Shown here piece after piece: positions 19,897 to 51,819 of a stretch of 58,239 bases of DNA (the stretch's first letter is position 1; each line of letters begins with the position of its first letter). The translations under genes were made by a program, and so were the position numbers. The DNA is from an uncultured Desulfobacterales bacterium (GTDB lineage Bacteria > Desulfobacterota > Desulfobacteria > Desulfobacterales > JAHEIW01): positions 1 to 58,239 of the forward strand of contig CAMYLV010000015.1 in NCBI GenBank assembly GCA_947259495.1, given 5' to 3'. The notes beneath the pieces were generated by a model. The model searched no databases and was not told the DNA's origin. It saw only the letters and a list, made by a program, of their open reading frames with translations.

Positions 19897-20102
19897 TTGA
19901 AACGCCCAGCCCGACCAGCGAGAAAATGGATTATATTGAAAAAAATAGGGAATCTTACTTGAAAATAGTACCCTTAAATGATACTTAAAAGCCTTTTTTG
20001 ATGGAACCGGTTCTGCCCGGGCGTCACGAATATCGAACTTATCGGTCGCTGGTCTGAAATACTTGCGACCTTATATAGCCAATGAAATGGCAAGGAGATG
20101 CG

Positions 20103-22220
20103 ATGATTGCGAGTATTTTTTTCATGCTGGGATTGGGGGTTGTTTGCGCCGGGATTTTAACAGCGGCATCCCGCATCTTTTACGTATACGAAGATCCACG
20201 GATTGCCCGCGTGGAAGCCTGTTTTGCGGGCGCCAATTGCGGCGGATGCGGTTACGCCGGCTGTTCCGCCGCAGCTGTCGCTGTCGTGGCAGGTGAGGCA
20301 GATCCCAGCGTTTGCATCGTTGGTGGTCCGGAATCGGCTACCAAAGCCGCTGAAGTTATGGGAGTGGAGGTTGGCCTGGCCGAGTCCCCCAAATCCTACA
20401 ACCCTTGCAGCGGCGGTGTGCGCGCTGCCGATAAATTTGTCTACCTCGGCGTCAATACCTGCCGGGCCCAGGCGGTTTTATCCGGCGGCCAGCGGGCATG
20501 TGCGGTTGGATGCATTGGACTGGGTGATTGCATTGATGCATGTCAGTTCAATGCCCTGAAAATGGGGCCGCAAGGTTATCCGGTGGTGGTGGCAGAAAAT
20601 TGTGTGGGTTGTGGCGCCTGCGAAACAGTCTGCCCCAAATATGTCATGAAGGTCAAAACCATGTCTGAGCGCCTGATGCACTTTAATTGCAGTAGTGATC
20701 GCCTGGCGCCCTGTCGCCAGACCTGTCCCGCCGAAATCGACATTCCCCAGTATATCGCCCAGATTCGAGAAGGAGACTACGAAGGCGCTGTCAATACCAT
20801 CCGGGAACGAAATCCGTTTCTGTTGTCCTGCGGTCGGGTGTGCCCGCATCCCTGCGAAACGAACTGCCGTCGGGGAATCGAGGATGAACCCGTGTCTATC
20901 AATCAATTGAAGCGCTTTGTCGCTGATTATGAGATGAATTCCGAAGAGCGGCTGCCCATCCCGACGGCCCCTGAGACGCGCAAACGCGTCGCCGTTATCG
21001 GCGGTGGACCGGCTGGATTAACCTGCGCGTATTTCCTCCGGCGGCTGGGCCATCAGGTCAATATTTTTGAAGCCATGCCAAAACTGGGGGGCATGTTGCG
21101 GTATGGTATTCCGGAGTATCGCCTGCCCAAACAGGTTCTGGACTGGGAAATCCAAACTATCCTGGATCTGGGGGTCGATTTTCACACCAATGTGAAATTC
21201 GGCTATGATTTCGACTTAAGTTCACTGGTAGCATCCGGGTTCGATGCCATCTTTCTGGGTATCGGCGCCTGGAAAGATGCCAGCCTGCGCGTAGAGGGAG
21301 AAGATCTCAAAGGCTGCTATACCGGAATTGATTTCCTTTCCCGGCTGGCCGGCGGCGAAAAGCTTCCCATCGGCCAAACGGCAGCGATTATCGGCGGCGG
21401 CAATACGGCCATCGACTGTACCCGCAATCTCATTCGCTTAGGCGCTGAAAAAGTATATATTGTTTATCGTCGTACCCGCGGAGAGATGCCTGCCAACGAG
21501 GTCGAAATCGATGCGGCTGAACACGAAGGGGTCGAATTTGTGTTTCTGGCCGCTCCGGTGAAAGTCATCGGCGATGAAGACAGTCATGCGACCCATCTTG
21601 AATATTTAAAGATGGAGCTCGGAGAACCCGACGCCAGCGGCAGGCGTCGGCCGGTGCCCATCGAAGGTTCCGAAACCCTGCTGCAAACCGACATGGTCAT
21701 TACCGCCATCGGTCAATCCCCCGATGTTTCATTTACCGAGCGCACTCAGAAACGCCTGGCAGATCTGAATACCACCCGCTGGAATACCATCGAAGTAAAT
21801 CCTGAGACGCTGCAATCCAACATCCCGTATTTGTTTGCCGCCGGAGATGCCGCCACCGGCCCGTCTCTGGTGGTATCAGCGATTGGCGGGGGACGACGGG
21901 CCGCCCGCTCCATTCACCAGTATGTTCTGGGACAAAAGATTATGGCTCAGGAAAATGAATTAAACAATGATCTGATCGCCGAAACCCTATTTGATCAGGT
22001 GGACGGGATTGTTAAAAATCCCAGAGCGCCGATGCCGGAGCTGCCGGTTAAAGAACGGATATACTCTTTTATTGAAGTAGATCAAGTACTTACAGAGGAT
22101 TCCGCCTCAGGCGAAAGCAACCGCTGCCTGTCGTGCTGTCTGACGTGTTATGACCCGGACGCGGCTGCAAGCAATGCCGCGCAGCCGAAGGCCAAGCACA
22201 CAAAAAGTGAAGCAGCCTAA
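20103..22220 (+). CDS. rnfB: RnfB ferredoxin subunit fused to GltD-like NAD(P)/FAD oxidoreductase module
   Basis: The N-terminal part is RnfB, the subunit of the ion-translocating ferredoxin:NAD+ oxidoreductase that takes electrons from ferredoxin. It has a membrane anchor (residues 1-25), the cluster motif C40-x5-C46-x2-C49-x4-C54, and two ferredoxin-type 4Fe-4S motifs including CVGCGACETVCP. The C-terminal part (from about 210) resembles the glutamate synthase small subunit/NfnB group: Cys motifs CRQTCPAEIDIPQYI and CGRVCPHPCETNCRRG, the FAD loop GGGPAG at 300-305, and a second Rossmann loop IIGGGNTAID. The start ATG 20103 follows AAGGAG by 5 nt; ATG 20082 is less likely. It is first in the rnf locus, whereas rnfB is commonly last. 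Length is 705 aa. Confidence 0.9.
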   Translation: MIASIFFMLGLGVVCAGILTAASRIFYVYEDPRIARVEACFAGANCGGCGYAGCSAAAVAVVAGEADPSVCIVGGPESATKAAEVMGVEVGLAESPKSYNPCSGGVRAADKFVYLGVNTCRAQAVLSGGQRACAVGCIGLGDCIDACQFNALKMGPQGYPVVVAENCVGCGACETVCPKYVMKVKTMSERLMHFNCSSDRLAPCRQTCPAEIDIPQYIAQIREGDYEGAVNTIRERNPFLLSCGRVCPHPCETNCRRGIEDEPVSINQLKRFVADYEMNSEERLPIPTAPETRKRVAVIGGGPAGLTCAYFLRRLGHQVNIFEAMPKLGGMLRYGIPEYRLPKQVLDWEIQTILDLGVDFHTNVKFGYDFDLSSLVASGFDAIFLGIGAWKDASLRVEGEDLKGCYTGIDFLSRLAGGEKLPIGQTAAIIGGGNTAIDCTRNLIRLGAEKVYIVYRRTRGEMPANEVEIDAAEHEGVEFVFLAAPVKVIGDEDSHATHLEYLKMELGEPDASGRRRPVPIEGSETLLQTDMVITAIGQSPDVSFTERTQKRLADLNTTRWNTIEVNPETLQSNIPYLFAAGDAATGPSLVVSAIGGGRRAARSIHQYVLGQKIMAQENELNNDLIAETLFDQVDGIVKNPRAPMPELPVKERIYSFIEVDQVLTEDSASGESNRCLSCCLTCYDPDAAASNAAQPKAKHTKSEAA

Positions 22221-22473: not shown

Positions 22474-23220
22474 ATGGGTGGTCTGAATTTTTTAGAAAAG
22501 GTCGACATCTTTAAGGGGTTCAGTCAGGACCAGTTAAAGGCTGCGAGTAAAGGGGGACGGGAAAAGCATTACCTTTATGGAGAAAGATTGTTTGCCGAAG
22601 GTGAAGATGCCGATCGGATCTGGCTGGTAACCGATGGTCAGGTGGACCTAAGATTTGATTTGCCGGGCCGCCCCACTTCAGAACAAAACACCGTCTTTGC
22701 GATCACCGCTCCTCAGACGCTGGGGTGGTCAAGCTTTGTGCCGCCCTTCAAGTATGCGCTTTCCGCCTATAGTGCCACCAAAACCTGCAAAATCCTGCAG
22801 ATTAAAAAAGATCACCTCCTGGAATGTTTCGATAAAGATCCCCGCATGGGACTTATGTTCATGACGAATGTGGCCGCAATTGCCAGCCGGCATTTTGATC
22901 AATTGCAGGAATCCACCTCTGTTGCGCCGGTGTCAAAGGTTAAAATTACCGTTCACATGTCGACCTGCGGAATAGCCGCCGGCGCCCGTCAGGTGATGGG
23001 TGCCCTGGTGGAGGAAATTTCCGGCTCCGATCGGCGGGATATTGAGGTTGCCAGCTCCGGATGTATCGGTCATTGTAAAAATGAACCCAATATTACGGTC
23101 GAAATCGGCAGCAGCGAGCCGGTCATTTATCAAGAAATGACGCCCGACAAAATGCGGCGGGTTTTTAAAGAACATATCCTGGGGGGCGAAGTTCAAGAAG
23201 ACTATATCTTAGGTCATTGA
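22474..23220 (+). CDS. Cyclic-nucleotide-binding-domain protein with C-terminal thioredoxin-like [2Fe-2S] domain
   Basis: Residues about 5-150 form a cNMP-binding (CRP-type) beta-roll with the usual GERLFAEGEDADRIWLV-like block near residue 33. There is no helix-turn-helix after it. Instead, from about 152, follows a thioredoxin-like ferredoxin domain with STCGIAAGARQVM and SGCIGHCKNEPNITVEI. This Cys pattern matches the N-terminal domain of NuoF/HydB-type NADH-oxidising subunits. I infer an electron-transfer or redox-sensing protein that responds to a small ligand; the ligand is unknown. A GAGGAGG site precedes the ATG. Its first domain is paralogous to the next gene. The position inside the rnf locus suggests a role with Rnf. 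Confidence 0.85.
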   Translation: MGGLNFLEKVDIFKGFSQDQLKAASKGGREKHYLYGERLFAEGEDADRIWLVTDGQVDLRFDLPGRPTSEQNTVFAITAPQTLGWSSFVPPFKYALSAYSATKTCKILQIKKDHLLECFDKDPRMGLMFMTNVAAIASRHFDQLQESTSVAPVSKVKITVHMSTCGIAAGARQVMGALVEEISGSDRRDIEVASSGCIGHCKNEPNITVEIGSSEPVIYQEMTPDKMRRVFKEHILGGEVQEDYILGH

Positions 23221-29266: not shown

Positions 29267-31153
29267 TTAAATATCATAGAGGTAGTGACACACATTACAC
29301 CCCCTCGGCGGATCCGGCATCGCTTTCCGGGCGTCCTTCAATACCTTTGAGCGATTCCCGCCTCCCCCTCCAAGCATGCTGTTCATAATGAGGTTATCGT
29401 ATTTTGCAACCCTTTCCTGAAATTTCTTCCGGTAAAACTGACAGCTCTCAGTCTCCCATAAATCCATCAGATCATCGCCCGGGAGTCTACCGTAATGCAC
29501 CGAGGGCATGCTCACTTCTTTGCCTAAAAAGGTCGTCGGCCCGCCGAGCGCCAGGTTAATGCAGGGTGCCACAGTACCATCATACCGGATAAACAGTGAA
29601 TCCCGCGGATCCTGCTCGCAGACGGCCAATTCCTGCGGTGTGAACGCAAAGGCGGTGGTCCGGATGTTTAATTTCTTGGCCAGGCGGCGGGCTTTATCCA
29701 ACGATTTTTGCAACTGACGGATTTCCCTGGTTTCCTCGGAAGCAAAAAGTCCAAATCCTTTTCCCTCTTTGCCACGAATAACATCGCATTGTTTGAAGTT
29801 TACCTGATCCACCCCCAGACGCGCAGCCAGCTGCACAATTTCTTCCATCTGGTGAGCGTTCATGTCCATCAAAACAAAATTGATCATGGTTTTGGGAACG
29901 CTGCCACTGCGCAGCCTGGCAATATTGGCCACATTTTCACAGACCCGATCAAAATTGGATCCAACTCGGATTTCATTGTACATCTCCGCAGTGGCGCCAT
30001 CCATGGAGGTGCATATCCATTTAATACCGGCATCCAGAATCATTTTTAATTTGTCTTCTTTAAGCAGCAGTCCGTTGGATAAAAAGCCGGTTTCACACCC
30101 GGCCTGCGTGGCATCTGCAATCCACTCCGCCAGGTGGGGCTGCAGCAGGGGTTCCCCGCCGCCGGTAAAATCAACCGATTGCACCCGATTTAGATATGGC
30201 CGGATCGCCGCCCAAACCGCCGGGGTCATTATACCGTGGTTTTCTGCTTTCTTGGCGATCTCTCGCCAGGGGCACATGACACACTTTAAATTACAGGCAA
30301 TCGCCGATTCCACCTGGAAGAGGCGCCAGGGTTTCTTTTTCAGCGATTTTTTTTCAATCACCTGCTCCCGGAAGGACGCCAGGCGCCGCTCCACATAGTG
30401 CGGCCAGATAAGAGCCGCCGTTGAATACCATTTACCGGCACGTTCCAGCCAGACTTCGCCCGGGGGACCGGCGGCAGCTTCAAAGACTTTTTGTGCAATA
30501 CGGAAACGGGGTTCACCGCAAATGTCTTTCTGACAGAGTCCCGGACGTTCTTCTTCCCGAAAGGCATGCTCTTCAAAAGCGGTTGCCACCGTACCCGGAT
30601 AAATATTGATAACATCAATACCCTTGGGCTCAAGTTCCAGACGCATGGTGTTGGTCATGACGGCCAGCGCCGACTTGCTGCCGCCATAGACCCCCACGGT
30701 TGGAATCGGCACCCGTCCGGCGCAGGATAAAATATTGACCAGCCGGCCGCTGCCTCTTTTTTGTATCTCCGGCAGCAGGGTTTTAATCAACATCAGGGGC
30801 GAAACGGTATTGACTTCAAAAAGATGGCGAATGTTTTCTTCGGTCGCCTCTTCCATCAGGGCAAAATATCCGACACCGGCATTGTTGACCAGAACATCGA
30901 TATGGCCGAGAGCCGATATCGCTTGCTGCGCCAGCTTTGCAGCCTCACCGGGCCTGGACAGATCGGCGGTAATGGCGAGTGCATTTTTCTTGCGCGGCAA
31001 TTTTGAAATCAGTTCGTTTAAAGCCTTTTCAGATCGAGATGTGAGCACCAGCCGCGCCCCACTGTCAGCCAGCAATTTAACCAGCGCAGAACCAAGGCCG
31101 CCGCTGGCTCCGGTGATCAAAACATGTTTGCCTTCAAAGTCGTATGGCTTCAT
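29267..31153 (-). CDS. Short-chain dehydrogenase fused to radical SAM/SPASM domain
   Basis: Residues 1-250 are a classical short-chain dehydrogenase/reductase: NAD(P) loop GASGGLG (15-21), NNAG (90-93) and the catalytic pair YGGSK (Y156, K160) with Ser upstream. Residues about 275-628 are a radical SAM enzyme: CNLKCVMC (C287, C291, C294), TGGGEP near 333, and a C-terminal SPASM-like region with YDGTVAPCINLA and CNVCHYLY. I do not know a characterised protein with this domain order. The frame is continuous. A plausible role is coupled radical chemistry and carbonyl/alcohol redox on one substrate, but the substrate is unknown. It is divergent from the gene at 31415. Confidence 0.88.
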   Translation of the reverse strand: MKPYDFEGKHVLITGASGGLGSALVKLLADSGARLVLTSRSEKALNELISKLPRKKNALAITADLSRPGEAAKLAQQAISALGHIDVLVNNAGVGYFALMEEATEENIRHLFEVNTVSPLMLIKTLLPEIQKRGSGRLVNILSCAGRVPIPTVGVYGGSKSALAVMTNTMRLELEPKGIDVINIYPGTVATAFEEHAFREEERPGLCQKDICGEPRFRIAQKVFEAAAGPPGEVWLERAGKWYSTAALIWPHYVERRLASFREQVIEKKSLKKKPWRLFQVESAIACNLKCVMCPWREIAKKAENHGIMTPAVWAAIRPYLNRVQSVDFTGGGEPLLQPHLAEWIADATQAGCETGFLSNGLLLKEDKLKMILDAGIKWICTSMDGATAEMYNEIRVGSNFDRVCENVANIARLRSGSVPKTMINFVLMDMNAHQMEEIVQLAARLGVDQVNFKQCDVIRGKEGKGFGLFASEETREIRQLQKSLDKARRLAKKLNIRTTAFAFTPQELAVCEQDPRDSLFIRYDGTVAPCINLALGGPTTFLGKEVSMPSVHYGRLPGDDLMDLWETESCQFYRKKFQERVAKYDNLIMNSMLGGGGGNRSKVLKDARKAMPDPPRGCNVCHYLYDI

Positions 31154-47766: not shown

Positions 47767-49041
47767 TCAACGAATCTGTTTTTCCCTCCAGCGCGTGATG
47801 AAATAATAGCACACCCCGGCAACCAGCAATGACGGCATGGATCCGCCAAGGGGGTATTTCAGGAGCGTGATCAGCTCGTAAACCAGAAAACCAATTGCCC
47901 AGCACAATAAGGCAACAGCATTAAAGCCCTTTGTATACCAGTACTGGCCTTGCGGCCGATAAATATCTTCGATGCTCAGCTGACGCTTTCGGATCAAAAA
48001 ATAGTCGGTCAGGACCACCCCAAACAGCGGCACAAACATTGCGCCGATCAGGAAGAGAAAATTTTCGTACTGCTCCATTGGAAAAACCAGCGCCACCGCT
48101 ATTGAAATAATGCCCGCCGCCCAGACGATGGTTCGCGAGCTGAACCGTTGAGATATATTCAGTGTTGAGCAGGCTGCAGAGTAGACATCCGGAAAGCCGG
48201 AGGTGATGGTTGAAAATACCACCATGGCCAGAGCCGGCACCGCTAAGCCAATTTTGCCCATGAGCTGCAGAATTAATGCGCCGGGGTCGCTTGCGCCGGT
48301 CACCAGGGTTGCCGTCAGACCCAGCGTATACATCCATGATGAAATCAGAAAATAGCCCAGCCAGGTATTCCAGAATGCCGGAGCGGTTCTTCTGGAAAAC
48401 CGCGCGTAATCTGCCACCAGCGGCATCCACGAAATCGGCATGGCAATAACCAGATCCAGGCCGATCATGAACGGCATTTTCCCGGGTTTGATCTCAAAAA
48501 CACCGCTGCCAAATTCTTTGACGGATACGCCACTCATCAACAAGATCACCAGCAACAGCCCGATAACCGTCAATTTTTGCAGGATGCGCCAGATGGATTT
48601 GCCCGTCTGCTGCGCCCACAGCAGGGTTCCCAGGCCTATGGCGATAATCCAGAAATGATTGGACGCCAGAATCCCCCCCATGGCGTTGCCCAGCATAGCG
48701 CCGGCACGACCGCCAATGATCAGCATGATCGAAGCCCACCCGATTAATTGGATGATGTTCAAAACTGCCGCCAGGTTTGATCCGCGGATGCCAAATGAAG
48801 GCCGAACGGAAACCATCGACATAATGCCGTATTCCGACCCGATGATCCCCCCCATTGCCATAACGGTATTGCCGATAAGGTGACCCAGCAAAATGGCCAG
48901 AATGCCCAGCCATAGCCCCATGGGTGCCAAAAAACCACCGGCCCAGATTTCGGCCAGCGAAATAGCCACACCGGCCCACAGCAGAAAATAGTCCAGGCCG
49001 CTGAGATTACGTTTTTTGCCGCTGATCGGCTTTATATCCAT
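47767..49041 (-). CDS. cytX: CytX-type NCS1 transporter, probable hydroxymethylpyrimidine importer
   Basis: This is a nucleobase:cation symporter-1 family membrane protein with about twelve hydrophobic segments. N-terminal FLLWAGVAISLAEIWAGG and PSFGIRGSNLAAVLNIIQLIGW match CytX, predicted to import the thiamine precursor hydroxymethylpyrimidine. The prediction is strongly supported by the TPP riboswitch and terminator upstream. I chose ATG 49041, 7 nt after GAGGTG; a GTG 9 nt upstream is part of that site. Length is 424 aa. Confidence 0.92.
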   Translation of the reverse strand: MDIKPISGKKRNLSGLDYFLLWAGVAISLAEIWAGGFLAPMGLWLGILAILLGHLIGNTVMAMGGIIGSEYGIMSMVSVRPSFGIRGSNLAAVLNIIQLIGWASIMLIIGGRAGAMLGNAMGGILASNHFWIIAIGLGTLLWAQQTGKSIWRILQKLTVIGLLLVILLMSGVSVKEFGSGVFEIKPGKMPFMIGLDLVIAMPISWMPLVADYARFSRRTAPAFWNTWLGYFLISSWMYTLGLTATLVTGASDPGALILQLMGKIGLAVPALAMVVFSTITSGFPDVYSAACSTLNISQRFSSRTIVWAAGIISIAVALVFPMEQYENFLFLIGAMFVPLFGVVLTDYFLIRKRQLSIEDIYRPQGQYWYTKGFNAVALLCWAIGFLVYELITLLKYPLGGSMPSLLVAGVCYYFITRWREKQIR

Positions 49042-49061
49042 TTTTCTCACCTCGTAAATTT

Positions 49062-49235: not shown

Positions 49236-49265
49236 AAAAAAGGCCGTCCGGTAAAGGGACAGCCT
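49236..49265 (-). terminator. Riboswitch-controlled intrinsic terminator before cytX
   Basis: On the minus strand AGGCTGTCC (49265-49257) pairs with GGACGGCCT (49249-49241), one G-T wobble, followed by TTTTTTATTTT. It begins about 10 nt after the TPP aptamer, the usual place for a ligand-dependent transcription terminator. Confidence 0.9.
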
Positions 49266-49274
49266 GGGCAAGAA

Positions 49275-49374
49275 TGTTTCCTACACCGGCATTATCCGGA
49301 TCAGGTTCAACGGTCGGACTCATGCCAACCTGCCAGAGTCCCTCTCAGCCCAGTCTCTCCGGGCTCCCGAAAAT
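49275..49374 (-). promoter_or_regulatory. TPP (thiamine pyrophosphate) riboswitch
   Basis: The minus strand carries the THI-box hallmarks in order: GGGAGCCC, GGGCTGAGAGG, an extra variable stem, TTGAACCTGATCCGGATAAT and GCCGGTGTAGGAAAC. The conserved CTGAGA and ACCTGATC(T/C)GGATAATGCC cores are exact. P1 can form between TTTC and GAAA at the ends. When TPP binds, the terminator just downstream should form and switch cytX off. Confidence 0.97.
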
Positions 49375-49403
49375 TATGATTCAACGACTAAGTCTACCTG
49401 GTA

Positions 49404-49757: not shown

Positions 49758-50210
49758 ATGCGAATATATAATCTAGATGGCTTGCTGAAAAAATACGGCG
49801 AACAATTTCTCATTCTGGAATTTAATCATCTGTTTGTCTCGTCTTCTATCCGCGAAGAAGTCTGGTTGCACCAGCGCAAAAATGATTTGGCCTTAATCGA
49901 CCGTATTATTCAGGAGGCAGCCGAATTCAATATGAATGAAGTAGACGCCGATAGGGATTTCGAGACTTACTCCGGCGGACAAAAAGCAATCCTGGCCTGC
50001 CTTCTGACGCTGGCGCTGATTCGCACCCGGAAAACTGGCGGCCTGAAATTATTGCAGAATAATATTCTGAACTCCGTAAGCGACGAAAACCGACTAAAAT
50101 TGATGCAAATATTCGAAAAAGTACGCGCAAGTCATGATGTCAGGCTGTTCACGCAAAAAGATGACCACCTGATAGAGATCTTTACAGGCAATGATCATTC
50201 CCAAAAATAA
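49758..50210 (+). CDS. Signature-only half of a split ECF-type ABC ATPase
   Basis: The 150-aa protein aligns by eye with the part of an ECF/CbiO-type ATPase from the Q-loop onward. LEFNHLFVSSSIREEV (20-35) resembles the FQNPDDQLFSxTVxEDV block, YSGGQKAIL (71-79) is a good ABC signature, and LLQNNILNSVSDENR (98-112) occupies the place of LLLDEPTxGLDxxxR. Walker A is absent because the N-terminal lobe is missing. Walker B is replaced (QNN for DEP), and the H-loop His is Gln (FTQ, 131-133). I chose ATG 49758 (GAAAGG 5 nt upstream); TTG 49755 adds one residue. It overlaps the next gene by 20 nt. Confidence 0.75.
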   Translation: MRIYNLDGLLKKYGEQFLILEFNHLFVSSSIREEVWLHQRKNDLALIDRIIQEAAEFNMNEVDADRDFETYSGGQKAILACLLTLALIRTRKTGGLKLLQNNILNSVSDENRLKLMQIFEKVRASHDVRLFTQKDDHLIEIFTGNDHSQK

Positions 50211-50721
50211 GTATAAGCTGCAAAATCGAAACCTGCTCTTTGATGTCGTCGATGATTTCGATTTTAACAGCAGAAACGCCTGCCATTATTTCAGGGGGGG
50301 CAACGGCTTTGGCAAGACATCTTTTCTGGAGAAAGTTATCATTCCGGCCCTCAACGCCGCTAAGCGGGATTATTTATATATCGGTCAGGATATTCGGACT
50401 CAGCTCTATACTCTGAAGGCCCTTCTCTCGATCCAGGGGCATAAGGTTTCCGAAACCGATGAATATGAACTGTTGCGGCTATGGGTTCACCAGAGCCAAT
50501 CTGCGCGCATCTTCATCCTGGATGAGTTTGATAAATATTTTCCGGATTACAGCTTTATCTTTGACTGGACCGAATCCTTCATCCAGAACTACATCATCGT
50601 TACCCATCAACGTCTTGAGCCGGTTGGTATCGTCGCTAAAAGTTTAAAGGCTACCCACGTGAGGTTTGAACTGATCGACTTAGACGGGCATGTTAAAAAT
50701 GTGCGGGTAAGGAAAGAATAA
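50191..50721 (+). CDS. Walker A/B-only half of a split ECF-type ABC ATPase
   Basis: The 176-aa protein has a good Walker A GGNGFGKTS (36-44), a Q-loop-like Gln (Q66, YIGQD), a Walker B with catalytic Glu IFILDEF (107-113) and an H-loop IIVTHQ (His 139). It lacks any LSGGQ signature; the corresponding helical region is shortened to LLRLWVHQSQSA. These are exactly the elements missing from the upstream protein, so the two should form a heterodimer with one composite ATP site. The start overlaps the upstream gene, suggesting translational coupling. It lies 1 nt before the T component gene. Confidence 0.78.
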   Translation: MIIPKNKYKLQNRNLLFDVVDDFDFNSRNACHYFRGGNGFGKTSFLEKVIIPALNAAKRDYLYIGQDIRTQLYTLKALLSIQGHKVSETDEYELLRLWVHQSQSARIFILDEFDKYFPDYSFIFDWTESFIQNYIIVTHQRLEPVGIVAKSLKATHVRFELIDLDGHVKNVRVRKE

Positions 50722-50722
50722 C

Positions 50723-51328
50723 ATGACCATGGTGAAGCTTGGCACGGTGCTGGTGCTGATATGCTCATTTTTCTGGCTGTTTGTTTTCGGCCCATTTTAT
50801 GACAACATCGCCATTCAGCTGGCTGTGTTTGTGTTCGTCATGGCCTGGCACATCATACGCTTTTCGTTCCGCGAAACGATTTCACTGCTGAAGTTCTGTT
50901 TTCCGTTTGTGCTGAGTCTGTTTATTTTTGGCCTGATCTTTCATTTCACGCGCTTATTCGGCAGAGTGGATTGGCTGCAGGACACGCTGATTAAATGTCT
51001 TGTGTTCCCCAGCTCATTGATTTTTTTAAAAATCATGTTGGCGACGATTACCTACTTGGACATCCTTAACCTTCCGATTTCAATGAAAAAACGAATTGGC
51101 CTGATTACCATGAAATCTGCCTTTCAAAAAGGAGAAAAAATATTGCGCCGGTTTTCCTGGTATCTGAACACCTATTCCGGGTTGCAATCCACCGGCAGAA
51201 TACGGTCTGAATTAAGGAAATATGCCTGCCTGATTATCGCCCTTTATTTGTATCTTTATGAAGAAATCGAAAACTCGAACCGCTTGTTGAAAAACCGGTA
51301 TCAGCATTTATATGAGGTCAATAAATGA
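50723..51328 (+). CDS. Putative reduced ECF transporter T component
   Basis: The 201-aa protein has four to five hydrophobic segments in residues 1-120, then a more hydrophilic C-terminal part with TGRIRSELRKYACLIIALYLYLYEEI and ENSNRLLKNRY. This ending resembles the second coupling helix of EcfT/CbiQ proteins (typically EARGY), with KNR in place of ARG. The protein is shorter than normal T components (about 250-280 aa). The call rests mainly on context: it lies between two ATPase-like genes and an S component. The stop overlaps the next start by 4 nt. Identity as EcfT is moderately sure. Confidence 0.6.
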   Translation: MTMVKLGTVLVLICSFFWLFVFGPFYDNIAIQLAVFVFVMAWHIIRFSFRETISLLKFCFPFVLSLFIFGLIFHFTRLFGRVDWLQDTLIKCLVFPSSLIFLKIMLATITYLDILNLPISMKKRIGLITMKSAFQKGEKILRRFSWYLNTYSGLQSTGRIRSELRKYACLIIALYLYLYEEIENSNRLLKNRYQHLYEVNK

Positions 51329-51819
51329 AAAATATTAAAATTGCCTTCATCGCGCTAACAGTTGTGGTTGCACTGATCACCCTGTTTATCAGGATCCCAC
51401 TGCCCAGTAGAGGCTATTTTAATTTTGGCGATGTTGCGGTTGTGTTCTCCGGACTGGTACTGGGTAGCCTGGCGCAACGAAGAAATTTTTGGTGGGGCGC
51501 CGGTGCCGGGGGCATCGGCTCGGCCCTGGCGGATATTATCGGCGGATTCGGCCTGTTTGCACCTATTACTTTAATTGCCAAGGGCGTTGAAGGCGGACTG
51601 TGTGCGCTGGCATCCGGCCGGCGCAATTTTGCCCGCTGGGTCTTAATTGTAATGGGCGGCGCGGCGATGGTCGCGTGCTACTTTATCGCCGAAGCTTTTA
51701 TGCCGAACATCGGTCTTCAGGGAGCCGTATCGGAAATCATTCCCAATCTTATCCAGGCCGGCGGCGGAATTGCCGGCGGCGTCCTGGCGTTTACGGCCTA
51801 TAAAAAGATAATCAAATGA
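51325..51819 (+). CDS. ECF transporter S component (substrate-binding, unknown substrate)
   Basis: The 164-aa protein has about five to six membrane segments. FNFGDVAVVFSGLVLGS (near 33-49), GAGAGGIGSALADIIGGFGLFAPITLIAKGVEGGL (about 59-93) match the ECF S-component family that includes vitamin-precursor binders (PF07155/PF12822-like). S components bind the vitamin and dock on the T and A subunits. The substrate is not evident. The divergent, TPP-controlled cytX hints at thiamine-related compounds, but no TPP riboswitch precedes this operon. It starts in the T stop (ATGA overlap). Confidence 0.78.
   Translation: MKNIKIAFIALTVVVALITLFIRIPLPSRGYFNFGDVAVVFSGLVLGSLAQRRNFWWGAGAGGIGSALADIIGGFGLFAPITLIAKGVEGGLCALASGRRNFARWVLIVMGGAAMVACYFIAEAFMPNIGLQGAVSEIIPNLIQAGGGIAGGVLAFTAYKKIIK

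Follow-up and report, generated by a model that had tools for sequence, protein, structure and literature searches.

ABC dimers hold each ATP through the Walker A, Walker B and H-loop elements of one subunit, with the partner's signature as the cap, and whether ABC motors need both of the resulting sites is a long-standing question, pursued mostly in full-size proteins. That question is raised by a locus in a window of 58,239 nucleotides (the whole stretch of DNA analysed here) from an uncultured Desulfobacterales bacterium, where two very small adjacent genes encode ATPase-like proteins that keep complementary halves of the ABC motif set. Are these two proteins a motor with a single ATP site, the remains of an ordinary pair, or something other than an ABC pair altogether?

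The cassette and its divided motifs

The two proteins, P1 and P2, are encoded by the first genes of a four-gene cassette, P1-P2-T-S, that occupies positions 49758-51819 of the forward strand. The initial annotation gave their coordinates, lengths, intact frames and 20-nt overlap (50191-50210) correctly; P2 and T lie 1 nt apart, and T and S overlap by 4 nt. The features of the locus are as follows.

47767-49050, minus strand: CytX, putative HMP permease (TIGR02358, 339.5 bits against a cut-off of 309.85)
49261-49380, minus strand: TPP riboswitch, divergent, leader of cytX (Rfam RF00059, 60.3 bits)
49758-50210, plus strand: P1, signature-only mini-ATPase, 150 aa, conserved in 7/7 loci
49968-49982, plus strand: P1 ABC signature, Y71-SGGQ75; TYSGGQ invariant in 7/7
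50049-50063, plus strand: P1 ruined Walker B, LLQNN (98-102), aligned to the Rad50 Walker B
50154-50159, plus strand: P1 Q133-K134, H-loop position, without His at either residue in 7/7
50191-50721, plus strand: P2, Walker A/B-bearing mini-ATPase without a working signature, 176 aa, conserved in 7/7 loci
50296-50319, plus strand: P2 Walker A, GGNGFGKT (36-43); GxNGxGKT in 7/7
50386-50388, plus strand: P2 Q-loop Gln, Q66 in GQDIRTQLY, aligned with canonical FQDADDQLF
50446-50460, plus strand: P2 degenerate signature, VSETD (86-90); no SGG in 7/7
50509-50526, plus strand: P2 Walker B, IFILDE (107-112), with catalytic Glu E112; D111-E112 invariant in 7/7
50605-50607, plus strand: P2 H-loop His, H139, invariant in 7/7
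50723-51328, plus strand: T-like membrane protein, 201 aa, between P2 and S, recognised by hydrophobicity and operon position
51325-51819, plus strand: S component, 164 aa (ECF-ribofla_trS, PF07155, E 5.3e-20)

P1 had been described as joining a good signature to a missing Walker A, a ruined Walker B and a glutamine in place of the H-loop histidine. The YSGGQ signature, the absence of GxxxxGK[S/T] and the LLQNN sequence are all as claimed, and both Asn of LLQNN align with the D and E of the Rad50 Walker B; the H-loop residue, however, is Q133 only when the region is aligned by eye (FTQKD on ITHD), and becomes K134 in the Rad50 alignment. A mis-called start of P1 is ruled out by the absence of any P-loop in the 900 nt upstream, read in the three same-strand frames at all seven loci described below; open in-frame codons upstream of P1 number just 3 at three of these loci and 12, 20, 31 and 190 at the other four. 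A programmed frameshift that would fuse P1 to P2 is likewise unsupported, because the two genes overlap by 20 nt in the window and by 14 nt in genomes G001 and G002 but are separated by 3-4 nt in G309 and G003.

For P2, the reported Walker A, Walker B with its Glu and H-loop His are present, but the signature, said to be missing, is better called degenerate than absent. In a forced full-length profile alignment VSETD (86-90) sits on the LSGGE of canonical ECF ATPases, and the P2 signature thus looks wrecked, not deleted; the confident local match to these ATPases spans 50 columns, from column 92 on, and the placement of VSETD comes from the forced alignment. The same alignment sets GQDIRTQLY on the canonical FQDADDQLF. 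Q66 and D111 are 45 residues apart, a span that we take to be about 30 residues shorter than in a canonical domain.

The proposal that T- and S-like genes follow in the same operon is upheld by a known domain family for S, whereas the T label derives from hydrophobicity and position in the operon. None of the seven T proteins matched CbiQ or passed the cut-off of any other Pfam family, and a search of the PDB with T returned no T-component match. Each has 2-4 hydrophobic segments, and they share 61-85% identity with the T of the window.

Three other proteins of the window were noted for their domain make-up. A 712-aa protein at 20082-22220 (plus strand) combines an RnfB-like Fe-S part with one that is a GltD-like NADPH oxidoreductase (PF04060, PF14691, PF07992), and the genes downstream of it resemble an Rnf cluster by eye. 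At 22474-23220 (plus strand) lies a cyclic-nucleotide-binding domain protein whose C-terminal part looks by eye like a thioredoxin-type 2Fe-2S domain, and at 29267-31153 (minus strand) a 628-aa protein in which a short-chain dehydrogenase (adh_short) is fused to a radical SAM domain.

Distribution of the split cassette and a fused counterpart

P1, P2 and T occur in the same order and with intact frames in 7 species of four families (the window and genomes G001, G002, G003, G309, G120 and G314). S follows T on the same contig at six of the 7 loci (in G314 the contig ends within it), and the S of G002 is on a different contig from P1-P2-T. The stop codons flagged for T in G002 and G314 are, by the frame lists, T's own ends. 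The complementary losses are found at 7/7 loci, with identity to the proteins of the window falling as low as 43-45%. Every P1 retains TYSGGQ but has no P-loop, no Walker B DE and no H-loop His, its Walker B position reading LLLNN, LLLSN or LLLIN in the relatives with the second N invariant in 7/7; every P2 keeps GxNGxGKT, Q66, D111-E112 and H139. Among the five closer species the dN/dS of P1 and P2 is 0.10-0.27, computed from the 8 of 10 species pairs for P1 and 6 of 10 for P2 that were not saturated, and these figures are rough, dS being mostly close to 1 or higher.

A search with P2 recovered 4 of 58 relatives, which are the four genomes of the genus, 5 of 291 genomes of the class, one of four in the family of G314 (G314 itself) and one of 297 in the phylum, the window's own. 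The T of the split cassette was found in 9 of 389 genomes of the order, seven times strongly and twice marginally (loci L025 and L026 in G342 and G180, at E 1e-4 and 5e-4; both are excluded from all counts). A scan of genome contigs gave 177 pattern matches, 3 of which are the relatives G002, G003 and G309, and a search of viral contigs gave no match.

A profile of S led to a second form. It matched 13 of 241 genomes of the class, every one labelled as the same order or nearer; four of these carry split cassettes and nine carry fused loci, in which S is adjoined by a T-like protein (T') and a single protein of 425-476 aa with both a P-loop and a signature. A T' profile, through which the T' of G084 was recognised, matched 8 of 147 class genomes, which comprise five of the nine already found and three with additional loci, and gave one weak partial match over 168 genomes of the phylum. 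In total there are 12 fused ATPases of 425-485 aa, selected by the presence of both motifs, one per locus beside T'/S (that of L072 has a masked N-terminal stretch). Each lies beside a T-like gene and 11 have S adjoining, a count that leaves out G109. G004, in the window's own family, has the fused form, and the window's genus has the split one.

The division of motifs within the fused chain is that of P1 and P2. In 12/12 the N-half has the signature LSGGE and reads ASP, CSP or SSP instead of DEP at the Walker B position, and no His was seen at its aligned H-loop position in any of the 12. The sole P-loop and the His are in the C-half in 12/12, together with a clean LDEP or MDEP, and (S/T/R)LLxxK is found there at the signature position. 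This fused double ATPase beside a PF07155 S, in the same order of bacteria, thus resembles the split pair in its signature-only first half, its Walker A/B-only second half and the T-like and S genes downstream. It differs in being a single chain with a larger C-half, and in a T' that cannot be aligned with the split T, hhalign detecting no homology between them.

ABC_tran matches the C-half in the three fused proteins tested (E 1.9e-7 to 1e-9), and a fused protein compared with the PDB matched 85 sequences at E 0.001, the best 60 of these 85 being all ABC proteins or midasin, with CbiO (1.1e-7) and EcfA (1e-5) among the matches. The searches made returned no family name for the fused double ATPase. 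A fused-ATPase profile matched none of 345 phylum genomes at E 1e-30, in a draw that held no known carrier and with 5 candidates per genome scored among the matches listed, which makes this negative uninformative. A more divergent subtype is present at L067 (5971-7248) and L068 (5902-7239), where the fused ATPases have 28% identity to that of L071, an H-loop region one residue longer (SHHARWW) and divergent T-like proteins beside them.

Relationship to canonical ECF ATPases

Family HMMs of Pfam and NCBIfam gave nothing over cut-off for P1, P2 or T. P1 and P2 were placed by profile comparison (hhalign with reversed controls), the canonical set being 12 ATPase frames beside CbiQ genes in related genomes, one of which (L065) was included on its signature alone, its P-loop pattern being negative. 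P1 matched the fused N-half at 74% (E 2.8e-5), the canonical ECF ATPases at 58% (E 9.7e-5) and the fused C-half at 0.5%; P2 matched the C-half at 94.6% (E 6.9e-8), the canonical set at 93.1% (E 3.1e-7) and the N-half at 0.4%. In the reverse direction the N-half found P1 at 53.5% and the C-half found P2 at 75.2%, and against the whole fused alignment P1 and P2 reached 52.7% and 93.8%. The 16 reversed controls stayed at or below 11.3%, those of P1 and P2 at or below 2.4%. By eye, P1 NHLFVSSSIREEV resembles the canonical region DDQLFSPTVLEDV, where the tool's alignment is gapped.

These comparisons bear on how the split and fused forms are related. It is quite possible, though we hold it at somewhat under an even chance, that one-site motors arose twice, by convergent loss of one site: T and T' cannot be aligned, the matches of P1 and P2 to canonical ECF ATPases are about equal in strength to those with the fused halves, and in a tree of S proteins those of the two kinds are set apart by long branches. 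That tree has 14 rows, long branches and a midpoint root, leaves out L086 and lacks 4 of the 11 fused S proteins, which the search pattern missed. Against two origins, both forms share the order signature-half, ATP-half, T, S, in the genomes drawn every strong match of either kind bears the label of the same order or a closer rank, and none is strong in the 297 and 168 phylum genomes except the window's own. We note that the shared A-T-S order and the common bacterial order favour a single origin only mildly.

A different doubt concerns P2 itself, which might be a P-loop NTPase outside the ABC class (STAND/AAA-like), with P1 a separate signature-bearing regulator and no ABC sandwich between them. 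The Pfam matches of P2 are indeed mostly of generic P-loop type, NACHT appearing in 7/7 members, the best single match being nSTAND_NTPase5 (E 1.9e-5), and ABC_tran, found in 2/7 members at 0.055, scoring below NACHT, nSTAND and AAA. On its own, P2 has weak PDB matches (at best E 0.013, led by ABC-F and ORC1), and its low-confidence structure model matches nucleotide kinases in Foldseek. We nevertheless consider this reading improbable, given the profile matches of P2 to canonical ECF ATPases and to the fused C-half with near-null reversed controls, the forced alignment of GQDIRTQLY and VSETD with canonical motifs, and the ABC_tran matches that fall in the C-half of the fused proteins. The best NCBIfam match of P2 is also an ABC ATPase, of CcmA type (E 1.4e-4, far under cut-off). 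The placement of P2 in the ABC class derives from profile comparison and context, as distinct from a fold match.

Structure prediction, which the initial annotation had suggested for the heterodimer, was applied to the single chains. AlphaFold on 4-row alignments gave models of low confidence (mean pLDDT 54.4 and pTM 0.53 for P1; 48.3 and 0.48 for P2), too weak for the P1/P2 interface to be within reach of these single chains, and Foldseek returned no fold match at E 0.001 for either. Ranks 1-13 for the weak P1 model are ABC proteins by title, ECF complexes included, and chain B of a folate ECF transporter, presumably an ATPase judging by its length, leads them (prob 0.82, E 0.074).

Decay of an ECF ATPase pair, leaving P1 and P2 as its remnants while another module in the cell serves T and S, is very improbable. 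Both proteins are shorter than the 12 canonical frames (242-332 aa), and the window's genome also carries two CbiQ-type ECF genes, yet the intact P1 and P2 frames, the complementary losses in 7/7 species, the dN/dS of 0.10-0.27, the invariance of the P1 signature and P2 catalytic residues, and the same losses in 12/12 fused relatives all argue that the split cassette is not in decay. The initial annotation had asked whether the complementary losses are conserved in homologous pairs elsewhere, as they are at all seven split loci, and held that full-length homologues together with frameshifts at this locus would mark a pseudogene; the fuller homologues proved to be fused proteins with the same losses, and no frameshift was seen.

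A proposed one-site motor among ABC transporters

We suggest that P1-P2-T-S is probably an ECF-like importer driven by P1 and P2 as an obligate heterodimer that has a single composite ATP site. The heterodimer, its single-site chemistry and the role of T are what we infer; what is observed is the motif distribution, its conservation, the selection on P1 and P2, the gene order and the S family. The single composite site made from complementary halves, as originally proposed, is strongly supported as regards motif retention (7/7 split, 12/12 fused, purifying selection), and at the level of sequence would work as follows. P2 would bind nucleotide through K42, D111/E112, Q66 and H139, and P1 would cap it with its signature S72-G73-G74-Q75. 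The mirror-image site would be gone from both sides, P1 being without the Walker A lobe, Walker B acids and switch His, and P2 without a working signature and much of the helical subdomain. A single ATP per closure would then drive the S-component cycle, where canonical ECF modules use two, and protein contacts would replace the second nucleotide.

The substrate may be thiamine-related, thiamine or HMP, a reading from gene context that we rate slightly better than even. Thiamine-type neighbours occur at 4/7 split loci. In the window and in G002 a TPP riboswitch and a divergent PF02133 permease lie next to P1, the window's permease passing the CytX cut-off and that of G002 being classed by Pfam only. 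In G001, the only locus with a same-strand upstream TPP riboswitch, the riboswitch leads an upstream operon of ATPase, permease and NMT1/THI5-type binding protein (thiXYZ-like) on the same strand, which runs into P1-P2-T-S after 81 nt; in NCBIfam the binding protein matched the SsuA model alone, below cut-off. G314 has a divergent CytX above cut-off, with no riboswitch match at cytX and an LpxD-like frame between cytX and P1, and this intervening gene lowers the odds a little. No thiamine-type neighbour was seen in the DNA examined around the remaining three split loci, and no riboswitch at the 12 fused loci.

More broadly, it seems fairly probable that the split and fused forms represent an ABC importer family hard-wired to one ATP site by reciprocal domain shedding, with a motor of about 326 residues in the split form. 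If this is true, P1 and P2 together may rank among the smallest ABC motors known, and the ECF cycle, in which the S component topples, can do without a second ATP site. One site has seemingly been removed by reciprocal deletion of whole subdomains and the result retained across several families. The P1-P2 pair would hence offer, for direct testing, a naturally occurring one-site ECF motor that is also a minimal ABC dimer. Among the literature titles and abstract openings searched, with preprints and most subscription papers outside that scope, one-site or split ECF ATPases are not described.

Known systems resemble the cassette in part. With ECF transporters (EcfA-EcfA'-T-S; BioMNY, CbiMQO) it shares a PF07155 S component of a known family, an adjoining membrane protein and the operon arrangement; its ATPases match the canonical ones by profile, with no family HMM over cut-off. 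It differs from them in ATPases of 150 and 176 aa, in a T that is hydrophobic and rightly placed with no EcfT/CbiQ match, and in having, by motif and in 7/7, one complete ATP site with the other stripped, the full ABC_tran motif set (Walker A, Q-loop, signature, Walker B, D-loop, H-loop) being divided between P1 and P2 instead of held in one domain. PMC10368641 describes a canonical ECF module, trapped in the closed state by a Walker B mutation, with ATP at both sites.

Heterodimeric ABC ATPases with a degenerate site, of which we take BmrCD to be an example, are likewise asymmetric pairs with one catalytic composite site, and by motif P1-P2 too would combine one catalytic with one non-catalytic site. 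According to PMC7756269, in the cases that it discusses, the nucleotide-binding domains of such exporters remain similar and the dead site usually keeps ATP as a hinge. Here, in contrast, the Walker A region is wholly missing from one partner: P1 is without a P-loop in 7/7, and the second site should therefore bind no ATP, so that the cycle, with no place in P1 for a hinge ATP, would run on one nucleotide. The heads of Rad50/SMC proteins offer a third likeness, the best PDB sequence match of P1 being the signature-to-H-loop segment of Rad50 (E 0.004), the signature-bearing part of that protein. In Rad50, which does not act in transport, a Walker A part belongs to the same chain as well.
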